Of a DNA stretch of 64,000 nucleotides, positions 6,004 through 51,962 are shown piece after piece. The stretch is taken from positions 1,029,157 through 1,093,156 of the forward strand of contig OV696605.1 in NCBI GenBank assembly GCA_927797885.1, in the 5' to 3' direction. Below the pieces are notes generated by a model. The model was given only the letters and a program-made list of their open reading frames with translations, ran no database searches and was not told the origin of the DNA. Numbering within the stretch: position 1 is the stretch's first letter; each line of letters starts with the position of its first letter. The stretch comes from Gloeomargaritales cyanobacterium VI4D9. Lineage in GTDB: Bacteria; Cyanobacteriota; Cyanobacteriia; Gloeomargaritales; Gloeomargaritaceae. A program made the translations under genes and the position numbers.

Positions 6004-6142
6004 GTAGCAATCCCAAATGAGTTTAGAACAGGGGTCGCAGGGGCACCGCCCCCGTAAAAGAAGCACCTGCGGTGTATGGTTCTGAAAAATTTTTGTATGC
6101 CTACGGCACGCAAGCTAATGCAAATCAAGTAGGATTGCTATA
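6004..6142. repeat. R2 palindromic repeat, copy 1
   Basis: Starts GTAGCAATCC and ends AGGATTGCTATA, flanking a GC-rich core (GGGGTCGCAGGGGCACCG). The same ends and core recur at many places in this window, including near 9318, 9603, 31640, 34282, 40508, 51865 and 56197. It has no coding capacity, and TATAG ends suggest TA-targeted insertion. Confidence 0.8.
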
Positions 6143-6322
6143 GCGAAGCCATTGGTAACTAAAAGGACAGTACATCGCCTCGTACAACAGTATAAACAGA
6201 CTCAAGACTTGACGAAAGTAGGGACGTTAGGCTGTGCCGTGCCGGAGGCATAGCGAGTTGGAATTTTAGAACAAAATCAAGTGGAGATTTTAGGCATTGT
6301 TCAAGGGTATCCAGATAAGGGC
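6143..6322 (+). pseudogene. IS630-type transposase N-terminal relic
   Basis: Translating directly after the R2 repeat gives RTVHRLVQQYKQTQDLT, then an internal stop, then ILEQNQVEILGIVQGYPD. This matches the helix-turn-helix and linker of IS630-type transposases. The rest is lost, and an R3-like end (GGGCACCTC) begins at the 3' edge. It is a decayed fragment cut by repeats on both sides. Confidence 0.5.
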
Positions 6323-6362
6323 ACCTCTATTTATTTGTACCCATTGAAAGTTATGTCGCTAG

Positions 6363-6537
6363 CAGAAGTGTTGAATCTTAAGATTTTGAGGGTTTGTGCC
6401 AAAATGTGCATCTAACCTGATGATACAAAACATTGTCATTTAGGGGCTAGATTCTCATTTATAACAAAAAATTTTCTCATTAAGTGTTTTGCCTGGCTCG
6501 AATTTATGAACTTTTGTTGCAGGGTTCAACACTACTG
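6363..6537. mobile_element. R1 MITE, copy 1 (175 bp)
   Basis: 175-bp non-coding element with terminal inverted repeats CAGAAGTGTTGAA and TTCAACACTACTG. It is flanked by a perfect 9-bp target duplication TGTCGCTAG (6354-6362 and 6538-6546). Two more copies of the same length are at 16291 and 37618. The ends match those of the IS4-type element at 14559-15666, which probably supplies the transposase. Confidence 0.9.
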
Positions 6538-6621
6538 TGTCGCTAGAATGCCCATACTACTAAGAACCAAGACGGGGGCTACGCCCCTGCAACCCATTTT
6601 TAGAAGTGCCCTTCTGCCACT

Positions 6622-14089: not shown

Positions 14090-14558
14090 CTTTAATCATG
14101 ACACTATAGCTAAGCAGGCAAAGGTTGGCATATAGAGCAGATGACTGAATCTATAAGATCATGAAGATTTTGGGTTGTAGATGTCATGGTTTTTCTAACT
14201 CTTTGCTTGATTCTATGCCATTGATGCTCAATCGGATTTAAATCGGGAGAGTATTTCGGTAGATATATCAATTCGCACCCAGCGGCTTCCACAACCTTCC
14301 TAACCAGTTTGCAACGATGAAAACTTGCATTATCTAAAACGATTTTCTTCCCTGCTCCAATTGTTGGCAACAACATCTCTGTTAACCAGGTAATCAATAC
14401 TTGCAAATTACAACTACCAACCCAAGTAAATGGTGCAACCAATTTCCCTAAATGATAACCACTCATCATGCTTATTCTCTCTCTCCTTTTGCCAGGTCGT
14501 TGACCATATATTCTTTGTCCTTTTAGCCCCCAACCATATTCATAAATATCTCGATTAT

Positions 14559-15666
14559 CACAAGTGTTGAATCCTGCAATAAAACTTTACATATTTAGGC
14601 GTGGGACGACCCGATTGAGCCAATGGACAAAATTCCACTCCTGCCGTATTAAGATTTGTATATATCGGAACTTATCTGCCAATTTACTTCCGTACATCCG
14701 TGGAACTTTTAACAGTTGCAATATCAAGTAAACTATTAAAATTACATAAATTTGAATGGTAATTCCATTCAAATTTTTACTCATCATTTTATCGAGCTTT
14801 AAGTTCATCTTTAGAAATTTCCATAGTACCTCTATCGCCCAGCGTTGTCTATAGGCTTCCCCTATCTCTTCATTACTCATTACATCCTCAGGAATATTGG
14901 TAGCTAAATAATAGTCTACTTTCTGTTGAACATTGCCAAAACAAACTACTCTCGCCTTACCTCGTTCTGTGGTGATATGATAGTTTTCATCCCATTTCCA
15001 ATTCGACTTAATACGGATAATAAAAAGGGCATCATTTTCGATAAATTGTTCAAATACTTTGTGACTGCAAAACCCTCTATCCCCGACTGCGACTCCATTT
15101 TCCGGTAGCATTTTCACAATATCTTCACCAAAATTAATCTCATGTGCCTGTCCAGGACTAACAATTAAATGACCAGTAGATTTCGTATCTTGATTCAAAG
15201 TGGTTATTAACTTTACTTGGCGATAGCCTTGGAGCCAAAATAACTTACTCATCAGCGGTATTACGGTAGCATCAAAAGGACATAAAACCAACCTCTTTTC
15301 AGGATGAGCTTCCTCAATATAATGCAATAATTTATGATAAAGATGCATAAAAATTTGTGGGTCTCTTGTCTTGTTCGCCTTAGAAAACGTGGATAAGTCA
15401 ACCTTAATGCCCGCATGATTTAATTGGTAAAATAAGTCCCGTAAACTGTTGATTCCTTTGTCTAAAATGCCAGCAAACCAGATTGAACAAAATAAGCGAG
15501 AATTTAGAACTGGATAATCATTAGTTGGCAGGTCTTTGAGTAAAAATTTGACAATCCCGGGAAAAGAATTGAATTTCATAGTTGTTTCATGTTTTGGTTT
15601 ATATGAATTAGAATACCATATTTTGACCCCTCTTTTTCTGCCTTTACCTACCTTTCAACACTTCTG
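14559..15666 (-). mobile_element. IS4-type insertion sequence, copy A (complete, 1108 bp)
   Basis: Complete element with ends CAGAAGTGTTGAA and TTCAACACTTGTG (minus-strand reading). It is flanked by a 9-bp duplication ATAATCGAG in the host IS630 transposase. The transposase gene is intact. Copy B at 36899-38190 is the same length once its nested MITE is removed, and copy C is a 3' remnant at 16166-16768. Confidence 0.93.
14587..15579 (-). CDS. IS4-family DDE transposase (intact)
   Basis: 330 residues. The DDE catalytic set is visible: first Asp in LCPFDATVIPL, second in VGDRGFCS, and the glutamate in the YREK signature YRQRWAIEVLWKFLK that defines the IS4 family. It is the only full-length transposase of this type in the window and probably mobilises the R1 MITEs, whose ends match. 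Confidence 0.93.
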   Translation of the reverse strand: MKFNSFPGIVKFLLKDLPTNDYPVLNSRLFCSIWFAGILDKGINSLRDLFYQLNHAGIKVDLSTFSKANKTRDPQIFMHLYHKLLHYIEEAHPEKRLVLCPFDATVIPLMSKLFWLQGYRQVKLITTLNQDTKSTGHLIVSPGQAHEINFGEDIVKMLPENGVAVGDRGFCSHKVFEQFIENDALFIIRIKSNWKWDENYHITTERGKARVVCFGNVQQKVDYYLATNIPEDVMSNEEIGEAYRQRWAIEVLWKFLKMNLKLDKMMSKNLNGITIQIYVILIVYLILQLLKVPRMYGSKLADKFRYIQILIRQEWNFVHWLNRVVPRLNM

Positions 15667-16165
15667 CTCGATTATCCATCCCAGACTGGTCAATATAGAC
15701 TAAATCTTCATTCTTTTCCTCTTTTATCATCTTGATAAATTGTTGTCGCTCTTCTTCGTTTTGTTCTTCATAAGAGTATGTTTTTTTTTACGGGTAAAGT
15801 TGATTTTTTTAAGGGCTTTACCAACTGTTGTATGACTTACACTGAGAATGACTCCCATTTCTTTTTGCGTCAACCCTTGATTTGCTTCTACAAATTGGCG
15901 AAATCCCTCCAAATCAGTGATCTTAGCACTATGACCCTTTTGATAGTTCTGTTTCGGGCGATAATCACCAGTTTCTGACCACATTTTTAACCATCTTTGT
16001 ACGGTTCTGATGCTAATACCAAATAACTCACTAACCTCAACTAGTTTTGCCCCATTTAAGACTGCTTCGACTGCTTTTTGACGCAAATCGTAACTGTATG
16101 GTCTTGCCATCGCTTTTCTCCTAAACATCTATCCTATAATAGGACGACCTTACCCTGCTTGACTA

Positions 16166-16768
16166 TATCACCACAGAACGAGGTAAGGCGAGAGTAGTTT
16201 GTTTTGGCAATGTTCAACAGAAAGTAGACTATTATTTAGCTACCAATATTCCTGAGGATGTAATGAGTAATGAAGAGATAGGGGAAGCCTCAGTAGTGTT
16301 GAACTCTGCAACAAAAGTTCATAAATTCAAGTCAGGCAAAATCCTTAATGAGAAAATTTTTGCTTATAAATGAGAATGTAGCTCCTAAATGACAATGCTT
16401 TGTATCATGAGGCGAGACGCACATTTTGGCACAAACCCTCAAAATCTTAAGATTCAACACTTCTGGGGAAGCCTATAGACAACGCTGGGCGATAGAGGTA
16501 CTATGGAAATTTCTAAAGATGAACTTAAAGCTCGATAAAATGATGAGTAAAAATTTGAATGGAATTACCATTCAAATTTATGTAATTTTAATAGTTTACT
16601 TGATATTGCAACTGTTAAAAGTTCCACGGATGTACGGAAGTAAATTGGCAGATAAGTTCCGATATATACAAATCTTAATACGGCAGGAGTGGAATTTTGT
16701 CCATTGGCTCAATCGGGTCGTCCCACGCCTAAATATGTAAAGTTTTATTGCAGGATTCAACACTTGTG
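16166..16768 (+). mobile_element. IS4-type element, copy C (3' remnant with a nested R1 MITE)
   Basis: From TATCACCACAG onward this matches the 3' half of copy A, through the transposase C-terminus and the right end TTCAACACTTGTG. The 5' half is absent: its left edge coincides with the end of the IS630 element. The transposase frame is further broken by an R1 MITE at 16291-16465. Confidence 0.9.
16291..16465. mobile_element. R1 MITE, copy 2 (175 bp)
   Basis: Ends CAGTAGTGTTGAA and TTCAACACTTCTG, flanked by the perfect 9-bp duplication GGGAAGCCT (16282-16290 and 16466-16474). It interrupts the YREK region of the copy C transposase. Confidence 0.93.
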
Positions 16769-31259: not shown

Positions 31260-31639
31260 GGAAATACCTCGCTCAGATGGATGACTAAAACAACAATCCC
31301 ATTTCCTAATATAGGGCAGACTCTGGTGATTGTCAACAAATTTCTGTAAATGAAAGCAAGTCCTAGAGAAGCCTAAACCCAGGCTAGATGAATATAAAAA
31401 GCAACTAAATCGCTTGTTGGCAGGTATATTTAGGGGAAAAACGGGGTTAATTTTAATCGGCTTCCTATTAAAAAATGGCAACAAATTCCTGGTAGAAACG
31501 GACAAATTGATAATGGCTCTCAATAGCTGCGCCCCTAGCCTCTTGCTAATCGGATTTAATACCTATGGTATGTCCAGAGCTTTTCGCAATAAGTTATCTT
31601 TTTGACCGATTGGCTACAGCTTGCCCGGCAAAAGTATCC

Positions 31640-31750
31640 TGGGTGAAAATGGAATAGGGGTCGCAGGGGCACCGCCCCCGTCTTGGGTTCTGGAAAATTC
31701 TTGTATGCCTACGGCACGCAAGCTAATGCAAATCAAGTAGGATTGCTATA
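31640..31750. repeat. R2 palindromic repeat, copy 4
   Basis: Core GGGGTCGCAGGGGCACCG and intact right end AGTAGGATTGCTATA; the left end is eroded. It contains the same TGCCTACGGCACGC sub-segment as copy 1. The rest of the gap between dpsA and the VIT-VWA gene (31260-31811) shows no gene. Confidence 0.7.
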
Positions 31751-36255: not shown

Positions 36256-36921
36256 ATGCCTCCTCTTACGACAACTTTTGAAATTCCCACAAGGATTATT
36301 AGCGGTTTAGCTGATGGCAATCTTGTAAGGAATGGTGGAGTGATTCAAGATCGAACTGGTCGTGTCTTTATGTGGCTTCGGGAACTGAGCAGTGCAAGTT
36401 CTATCCCTATGTCTACTCCCAACCTATTATCTGGTGTTGACCCAGTTACAGGAATCTTAAATCTTGCTATGCAAGGGGTCAATGCGGGGATTTCGTTGAG
36501 AGGTTTTGCTTCTGTTACACAACAACTTGACCAAATTCAAGGTATGCTTAATATAACAACGGCATCTAGTATGCTCAATCTAGGTGTCTCAGTAATGGGC
36601 TTTGCTGTGATCTTAAAAAAAGTAAAAGAGTTAGAAGGGAGACTAGAAAAAGTTCAGGAAATTCTGGAAAAAATAGATCAGAAAATAGACCTAAGTTTTT
36701 ATGCAAACTTTAAAGCCGCTTTAGACTTAGCAATGAATGCTTTCACAATGAGTAAAGGTGAAAACCGAAACACTAGTGCCCTAAATGCGATAAATAGATT
36801 TTTAGAAGCAGAGCACATATACACTAATTTAGTCGATAAAGAGCTATCTGCAAGAAGCCAAGTGAGTAATGAGTATTTGCTAACTTTATGTCTTGCCTCA
36901 GAAGTGTTGAAAGGTAGGTAA
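36256..36921 (+). pseudogene. Unknown coiled-coil protein, 3' end cut by IS4 copy B
   Basis: 221 residues from ATG 36256, preceded by AGGAT at a suitable distance. The N-terminal region (FEIPTRIISGLADGNLVRNGG) and a helical coiled coil (about 145-175, LEGRLEKVQEILEKI) are visible. I recognise no enzyme domain. The natural reading ends at about LCLASE; the final residues and the stop come from the insertion sequence. The GTTATGT at 36218 just upstream suggests it entered as an integron cassette. Confidence 0.65.
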
Positions 36922-36985
36922 AGGCAGAAAAAGAGGGGTCAAAATATGGTATTCTAATTCATATAAACCAAAACATGAAACAACT

Positions 36986-38162
36986 ATGAAATTCAATTCT
37001 TTTCCCGGGATTGTCAAATTTTTACTCAAAGACCTGCCAACTAATGATTATCCAGTTCTAAATTCTCGCTTATTTTGTTCAATCTGGTTTGCTGGCATTT
37101 TAGACAAAGGAATCAACAGTTTACGGGACTTATTTTACCAATTAAATCATGCGGGCATTAAGGTTGACTTATCCACGTTTTCTAAGGCGAACAAGACAAG
37201 AGACCCACAAATTTTTATGCATCTTTATCATAAATTATTGCATTATATTGAGGAAGCTCATCCTGAAAAGAGGTTGGTTTTATGTCCTTTTGATGCTACC
37301 GTAATACCGCTGATGAGTAAGTTATTTTGGCTCCAAGGCTATCGCCAAGTAAAGTTAATAACCACTTTGAATCAAGATACGAAATCTACTGGTCATTTAA
37401 TTGTTAGTCCTGGACAGGCACATGAGATTAATTTTGGTGAAGATATTGTGAAAATGCTACCGGAAAATGGAGTCGCAGTCGGGGATAGAGGGTTTTGCAG
37501 TCACAAAGTATTTGAACAATTTATCGAAAATGATGCCCTTTTTATTATCCGTATTAAGTCGAATTGGAAATGGGATGAAAACTATCATATCACCACAGAA
37601 CGAGGTAAGGCGAGAGTCAGTAGTGTTGAACCCTGCAACAAAAGTTCATAAATTCGAGCCAGGCAAAACACTTAATGAGAAAATTTTTTGTTATAAATGA
37701 GAATCTAGCCCCTAAATGACAATGTTTTGTATCATCAGGTTAGATGCACATTTTGGCACAAACCCTCAAAATCTTAAGATTCAACACTTCTGGGCGAGAG
37801 TAGTTTGTTTTGGCAATGTTCAACAGAAAGTAGACTATTATTTAGCTACCAATATTCCTGAGGATGTAATGAGTAATGAAGAGATAGGGGAAGCCTATAG
37901 ACAACGCTGGGCGATAGAGGTACTATGGAAATTTCTAAAGATGAACTTAAAGCTCGATAAAATGATGAGTAAAAATTTGAATGGAATTACCATTCAAATT
38001 TATGTAATTTTAATAGTTTACTTGATATTGCAACTGTTAAAAGTTCCACGGATGTACGGAAGTAAATTGGCAGATAAGTTCCGATATATACAAATCTTAA
38101 TACGGCAGGAGTGGAATTTTGTCCATTGGCTCAATCGGGTCGTCCCACGCCTAAATATGTAA
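36986..38162 (+). pseudogene. IS4-family transposase interrupted by R1 MITE
   Basis: Same protein as that encoded at 14587-15579. The frame is broken after TTERGKARV by the MITE at 37618 and resumes at 37793 to the normal C-terminus. Confidence 0.93.
37618..37792. mobile_element. R1 MITE, copy 3 (175 bp)
   Basis: Ends CAGTAGTGTTGAA and TTCAACACTTCTG with the perfect 9-bp duplication GGCGAGAGT (37609-37617 and 37793-37801) in the transposase gene. Confidence 0.93.
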
Positions 38163-38190
38163 AGTTTTATTGCAGGATTCAACACTTGTG

Positions 38191-40507: not shown

Positions 40508-40724
40508 TATAGCGATCCTAAATGAGAATGGAACAGGGGTCGCAGGGGCACCGCCCCCGTCCTTGGTTCTGGAAAATTCTTGTTTGTATAGTCATTTCGA
40601 TTGAGAATGCGACACTTTTTAGGTATTTGTAATCGCTCTATCTCCTTCCAAGACAGGGGTTGTAAGTAAAGGCGAATGTCGCAAACTTGTTTGAAACTAC
40701 TATAAATCAAGTAGGATTGCTATA
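40508..40724. repeat. R2 palindromic repeat, copy 6, with an internal insert
   Basis: Ends TATAGCGATCCTAAATGAGA and AGTAGGATTGCTATA with the usual core. About 110 extra bases sit inside (about 40595-40705), bounded by AATGCGACACTTT and GAATGTCGCAAAC, themselves inverted repeats. It separates the IS1 fragment from the IS5 C-terminal fragment. Confidence 0.72.
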
Positions 40725-51860: not shown

Positions 51861-51864
51861 GCCA

Positions 51865-51962
51865 TAGCAATCCTAAATGAGAATGGAACAGGGGTCGCAG
51901 GGGCACTGCCCCCGCATTTGGTTCTGGAAAATTTTGTTGGTTAATCAAATAGGATTGCTATA
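51865..51962. repeat. R2 palindromic repeat, copy 7 (compact, complete)
   Basis: About 98 bp with intact ends ATAGCAATCCTAAATGAGA and AATAGGATTGCTATAG around GGGGTCGCAGGGGCACTG. Its right end overlaps the crtD stop codon, so insertion created the present C-terminus of that protein. Confidence 0.82.

Follow-up and report, generated by a model that had tools for sequence, protein, structure and literature searches.

The window – the whole stretch of DNA analysed here, 64,000 nucleotides spanning positions 1,029,157-1,093,156 of a 3.16-Mb single-contig genome – contains three copies of a short element that we interpret as a miniature inverted-repeat transposable element (MITE). It also contains an intact copy of an IS4-type insertion sequence, termed IS4-A, and two IS4-A copies that are interrupted by a MITE (Table 1).

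Table 1. Coordinates of the MITE copies, IS4-A copies and associated features in the window.
Feature	Position	Strand	Remarks
Dispersed ~114-bp repeat (empty form) split by MITE copy 1	6316-6613		Joined flanks match uninterrupted paralogues
Left 9-bp duplication of copy 1	6354-6362 (twin 6538-6546)		TGTCGCTAG at either side
MITE copy 1	6363-6537	+	Subfamily S1; 175 bp; 9-bp duplication TGTCGCTAG
IS630 transposase, C-terminal part, split by intact IS4-A	14110-14469	-	NF033545, PF13358
Intact IS4-A (presumed helper)	14559-15666	-	1108 bp; duplication CTCGATTAT
IS4-A transposase	14587-15579	-	330 aa; PF01609 1.2e-25; NF033592 IS4 family 170 bits (cut-off 115)
IS630 transposase, N-terminal part, split by intact IS4-A	15727-16128	-	PF01710
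5'-truncated IS4-A split by MITE copy 2	16165-16768	+	IS positions 689-814 and 805-1108 at 100% identity
MITE copy 2	16291-16465	-	Subfamily S3; 9-bp duplication GGGAAGCCT
IS4-A carrying MITE copy 3	36899-38190	+	1292 bp; without flanking duplication of its own
MITE copy 3	37618-37792	-	Subfamily S1; 9-bp duplication GGCGAGAGT

Three MITE copies in the window

The initial annotation described three 175-bp copies starting at 6363, 16291 and 37618, each bordered by a perfect but different 9-bp duplication, and placed two of them inside IS4-type transposase genes. Both descriptions hold, the latter for copies 2 and 3. Copies 1 and 3 are identical to one another; copy 2 is 92% identical to S1 and has a sister copy elsewhere in the genome that differs from it by 1 base. 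When the MITE and one duplication are removed from 36899-38190, what remains is an exact 1108-bp IS4-A at 100% identity. Copies 2 and 3 both interrupt the transposase ahead of the glutamate in its YREK motif (insertion codons 208-211 and 240-243; the motif begins at residue 243).

Copy 1 lies in a different setting. Within the part of this genome that was sampled, its joined flanks have 13 matches; same-genus genomes add dozens of uninterrupted paralogues, at up to 94% identity. This joined-flank search returned paralogous repeats only, with no single-copy empty site for copy 1. The window also holds small dispersed repeats with ends like ATAGCAATCC / GGATTGCTAT (6004-6073, 31630-31699, 40509-40578 and 51864-51933), and further examples occur at genome positions 2726325 and 2841254. 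MITE copies are interrupted by one repeat of this type, and both IS4-A and the MITE have landed in many of these repeats at AGGATTGCT.

A MITE family with a presumed IS4-type helper

Reading the family locus by locus across the genome, we did not find that most copies have other ends or lack 9-bp duplications. The MITE search gave 44 matches, 27 of them full length, and fragments also occur, so that the element has reached about thirty sites in the genome; a perfect 9-bp duplication flanks 22 of the 27, and one more has a duplication with a single mismatch. Alignment separated subfamilies S1 (14 identical copies), S2 (four copies) and S3 (two copies, including window copy 2). There are also older copies that occur singly, and an old 189-bp form shared with the genome of a sister species (G003). 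At 175 bp the element is too short for an ORF of 100 amino acids and carries no transposase gene. Its terminal inverted repeats, CAGAAGTGTTGAA / CAGTAGTGTTGAA, are common to resident autonomous insertion sequences. As expected for inverted ends, MITE RNA folds better than shuffled sequences (z of -3.2 and -2.5). A 25-base core of the MITE was absent from genome_contigs, and a plasmid search with the element gave no match either; across the genomes searched, the sequence family was not found outside this genus.

IS4-A is present in 64 full-length copies – 57 identical, four with a one-base difference and three at 92-95% – so that 61 of the 64 are 99.9-100% identical; two further diverged copies (93% and 88%) lie beyond this set. 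Fifty-one of the 64 retain a perfect 9-bp duplication, and IS4-A makes up about 2% of the genome. The ends of the element (CAGAAGTGT / CACAAGTGT) fit the pattern CA------T with 9-bp duplications, and the transposase contains a Y(2)R(3)E(6)K motif (YRQRWAIEVLWKFLK) at residue 243. The IS4-A transposase had no confirmed relative in genome_contigs, and it is ~39-40% identical to that of Synechocystis IS4Sa and up to 45% identical to Nostoc relatives.

The nearest described relatives of IS4-A are cyanobacterial IS4Sa-type elements. IS4-A shares with the IS4Sa subgroup a single transposase ORF, the YREK motif, CA------T ends and 9-bp duplications (8-10 bp in the subgroup; PMC2266710). We name this subgroup as the nearest only, because IS4-A at 1108 bp is slightly shorter than the 1150-1750 bp that is typical, though not strict, for its members (PMC2266710). 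The candidate residues D103, D167 and E250, picked by motif inspection rather than alignment, have spacers of 63 and 82 residues, the second being below the quoted IS4 family range of D(60-110)D(100-150)E (PMC2266710).

Comparable MITEs are known from other prokaryotes, including the ISSoc2-derived MITEs of Synechococcus and others, which are mobilised by resident insertion sequences (review PMC10969869), and a 187-nt MITE of Microcystis with an ISL3 helper (PMC11448079). Like these, the 175-bp element is shorter than 200 bp, non-coding, mostly intergenic, present in dozens of copies and associated with gene knock-outs, and both its terminal repeats and the length of its duplications correspond to those of a resident insertion sequence. 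It differs from them in its presumed IS4-family helper, its 9-bp duplications and its ends, which mix features of two resident IS4 elements. The family is a new one of an already known kind, with a presumed helper from the IS4 family.

IS4-A as the more likely helper

The initial annotation proposed that the MITE parasitises an IS4-type helper whose ends it shares. The 9-bp duplications, similar ends, flank preference and co-amplification support the first part of this proposal. The second part is only partly accurate: the left 13 bp of the MITE are identical to those of IS4-A and the right 33 bp are 82% identical, but the right tip reads CAGTAG where IS4-A has CACAAG. That tip exactly matches a second resident IS4 element, IS4-B.

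This match raises the alternative that IS4-B is the helper and that IS4-A is merely abundant. The tips fit IS4-B better – both outer 13 bp are identical to those of the MITE, and the left 19 bp are 95% identical – and one IS4-B copy, at 2656776, retains a full 323-amino-acid frame. The inner right end of the MITE, by comparison, is closer to IS4-A than to IS4-B, and the other three of the four IS4-B copies in this genome have broken frames.

The flanks of the insertion sites separate the two candidates. A or T occupies 81% of the three bases on each flank for both the MITE and IS4-A, versus 55-57% nearby. IS4-B sites, as seen in G003, are instead flanked by GT..AC, with G at the third flank base in 11 of 20 cases; the corresponding counts are 3 of 42 for the MITE and 5 of 104 for IS4-A (MITE versus IS4-B, P = 7e-5; MITE versus IS4-A, P = 0.69). 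When 21 MITE sites were compared with both flank profiles, 19 proved closer to that of IS4-A than to that of IS4-B, the latter being derived from a different genome (G003). Because flank preference distinguishes the two elements in this way, we consider IS4-A the more likely helper.

The sister genome bears on the same question. We observed an IS4-B burst in G003, with 21 full-length copies at an identical score (loci L114-L125), whereas IS4-A has two copies there, 97% and 88% identical at the DNA level, and the MITE is represented by a single copy at 94% besides one old form. Close relatives have therefore expanded different IS4 elements – IS4-A here and IS4-B in the sister species – and the IS4-B burst proceeded without MITE amplification. 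These observations make it unlikely that IS4-B is the helper; as sole helper it ranks second, owing to flank preference. Judging from its tips and its one open-frame copy, IS4-B may nonetheless contribute to MITE mobilisation.

Shared flank preference and co-amplification indicate that an IS4-family transposase likely mobilises the MITE in trans. In the mechanism that we propose, the IS4-A transposase would bind the MITE ends in trans and excise the element, and insertion through staggered cuts at A/T-flanked sites would then produce the 9-bp duplications. The MITE predates the current burst, and at least three of its lineages have been mobile recently, alongside the growth of IS4-A to ~60 near-identical copies. 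The MITE/IS4-A pair is well documented but ordinary. Its interest lies in being a clean, very recent burst of helper and passenger with a natural control – a sister species that grew another IS4 and not the MITE – and the burst can thus be used to test which transposase moves which ends.

Insertion into the presumed helper roughly matches chance

We next consider whether the MITE favours IS4-A as a target and limits its own helper by doing so, as the initial annotation suggested. Three MITEs lie within IS4-A genome-wide, and all of them interrupt the transposase frame at a point upstream of the codon for the catalytic glutamate. They represent two independent events – one at IS positions 711-719 and one, window copy 2, at IS positions 806-814 – because two of the three lie in identical 1292-bp units.

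Two events do not exceed expectation. A uniform model predicts 0.67 events for 29 insertions (P(>=2) = 0.14); for the 19 recent insertions it predicts 0.44, making the observed number mildly high (P = 0.07). MITE sites strongly avoid ORFs, however, with 32% falling in ORFs of at least 100 amino acids versus 84% of random points, which justifies a null model confined to dispensable DNA. Using non-coding DNA plus IS4-A as this null, with the non-coding fraction taken from crude ORF calls in the 64-kb window, we obtained an expectation of ~1.7-2.1 events and a P of about 0.5-0.6.

Other insertions follow the same pattern. Dispersed repeats hold 12 MITE sites out of 22, that of window copy 1 included, and 26 IS4-A sites out of 52, compared with 41 of 300 random points. 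IS5 has also received a MITE (one among about 23 full-length copies), and IS4-A itself has inserted into IS5, IS630 and IS4-B copies. Insertions survive mainly in dispensable DNA, such as repeats between genes and insertion sequences of other kinds. IS4-A belongs to this DNA too, at about 2% of the genome, so no targeting is needed for it to have been hit twice by chance. Insertion into the helper is part of this general pattern, and helper-targeting is not supported. More broadly, nested insertions that resemble targeting can reflect the helper's own share of dispensable DNA.

The remaining evidence on self-limitation points the same way. Fifty-seven identical intact IS4-A copies are still present and an interrupted copy has itself been duplicated, which leaves a favoured, helper-limiting insertion very improbable. 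We consider it highly probable that the 175-bp element belongs to the IS4 family as a non-autonomous MITE, is mobilised in trans by IS4-A and has become nested within it by chance.

Copying of the interrupted helper

The duplicated unit comprises the window copy at 36899-38190 and an identical 1292-bp copy at genome positions 630335-631626. The two have different flanks, and the second has a perfect 9-bp duplication of its own (GTTTATTAT). Presence in two places, whether through trans transposition or gene conversion, means that silencing is no bar to being copied. A silenced helper would keep both ends and could still be copied in trans, placing no limit on the system. The proposal that insertion silences the helper in a self-limiting dynamic was accordingly not borne out: against ~60 intact near-identical helpers, the two to three silenced ones are negligible.

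A serious possibility is that copies of IS4-A exchanged sequence by gene conversion or recombination and so duplicated the unit, in place of trans transposition. The window unit has no duplication of its own, and several unmatched 9-mers flanking IS4-A copies pair between distant copies, as recombining copies would produce. The copy at 630335, with its perfect duplication, looks like a transposed unit, though a converted resident copy would look alike. We also considered that MITE-hit helpers might act as larger non-autonomous elements of 1292 bp, spreading via the helper enzyme and slowly turning the helper population into passengers that compete for transposase; this seems a long shot.

Genome damage and neighbouring elements

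The distant pairs of unmatched IS4 9-mers comprise 8529/940231, 338659/680349/703282, 1983341/2766439 and 209610/935827. Inversions or translocations mediated by the IS would explain them, as would misjoins between identical repeats in the assembly.

Both elements have disrupted nitrogen fixation genes. The only full nifH match of the genome is split by a MITE (genome positions 1365328-1366324, L008), and nifE is split by IS4-A (1360075-1361182, L081); seven related genomes were searched, and in five of them an nifH scores above the family cut-off. Nitrogen fixation was likely lost recently through the MITE and IS4-A pair. Cyanobacterial transposase relatives and a CrtD carotenoid gene both point to the genome being cyanobacterial.

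Nesting is evident at window positions 14110-16768, where the IS630 element split by IS4-A adjoins the 5'-truncated IS4-A split by MITE copy 2; the missing 5' part of the truncated element (16165-16768) was not found nearby. At genome positions 1410397-1411762 (L082), 83 bp separate a MITE from an intact IS4-A, and the two carry the same 9-mer in inverted orientation (ACTGATGCC / GGCATCAGT), which suggests a local inversion or a one-ended event. Finally, positions 792-1525 of a locus in a genome from another family of the class (L062, G012) hold a 734-bp element that may likewise be non-autonomous: its ends are CAGAAGTGTTGAA / CACAAGTGTTGAATCTTAAGATTTT, one of them MITE-like, and they enclose no transposase ORF.
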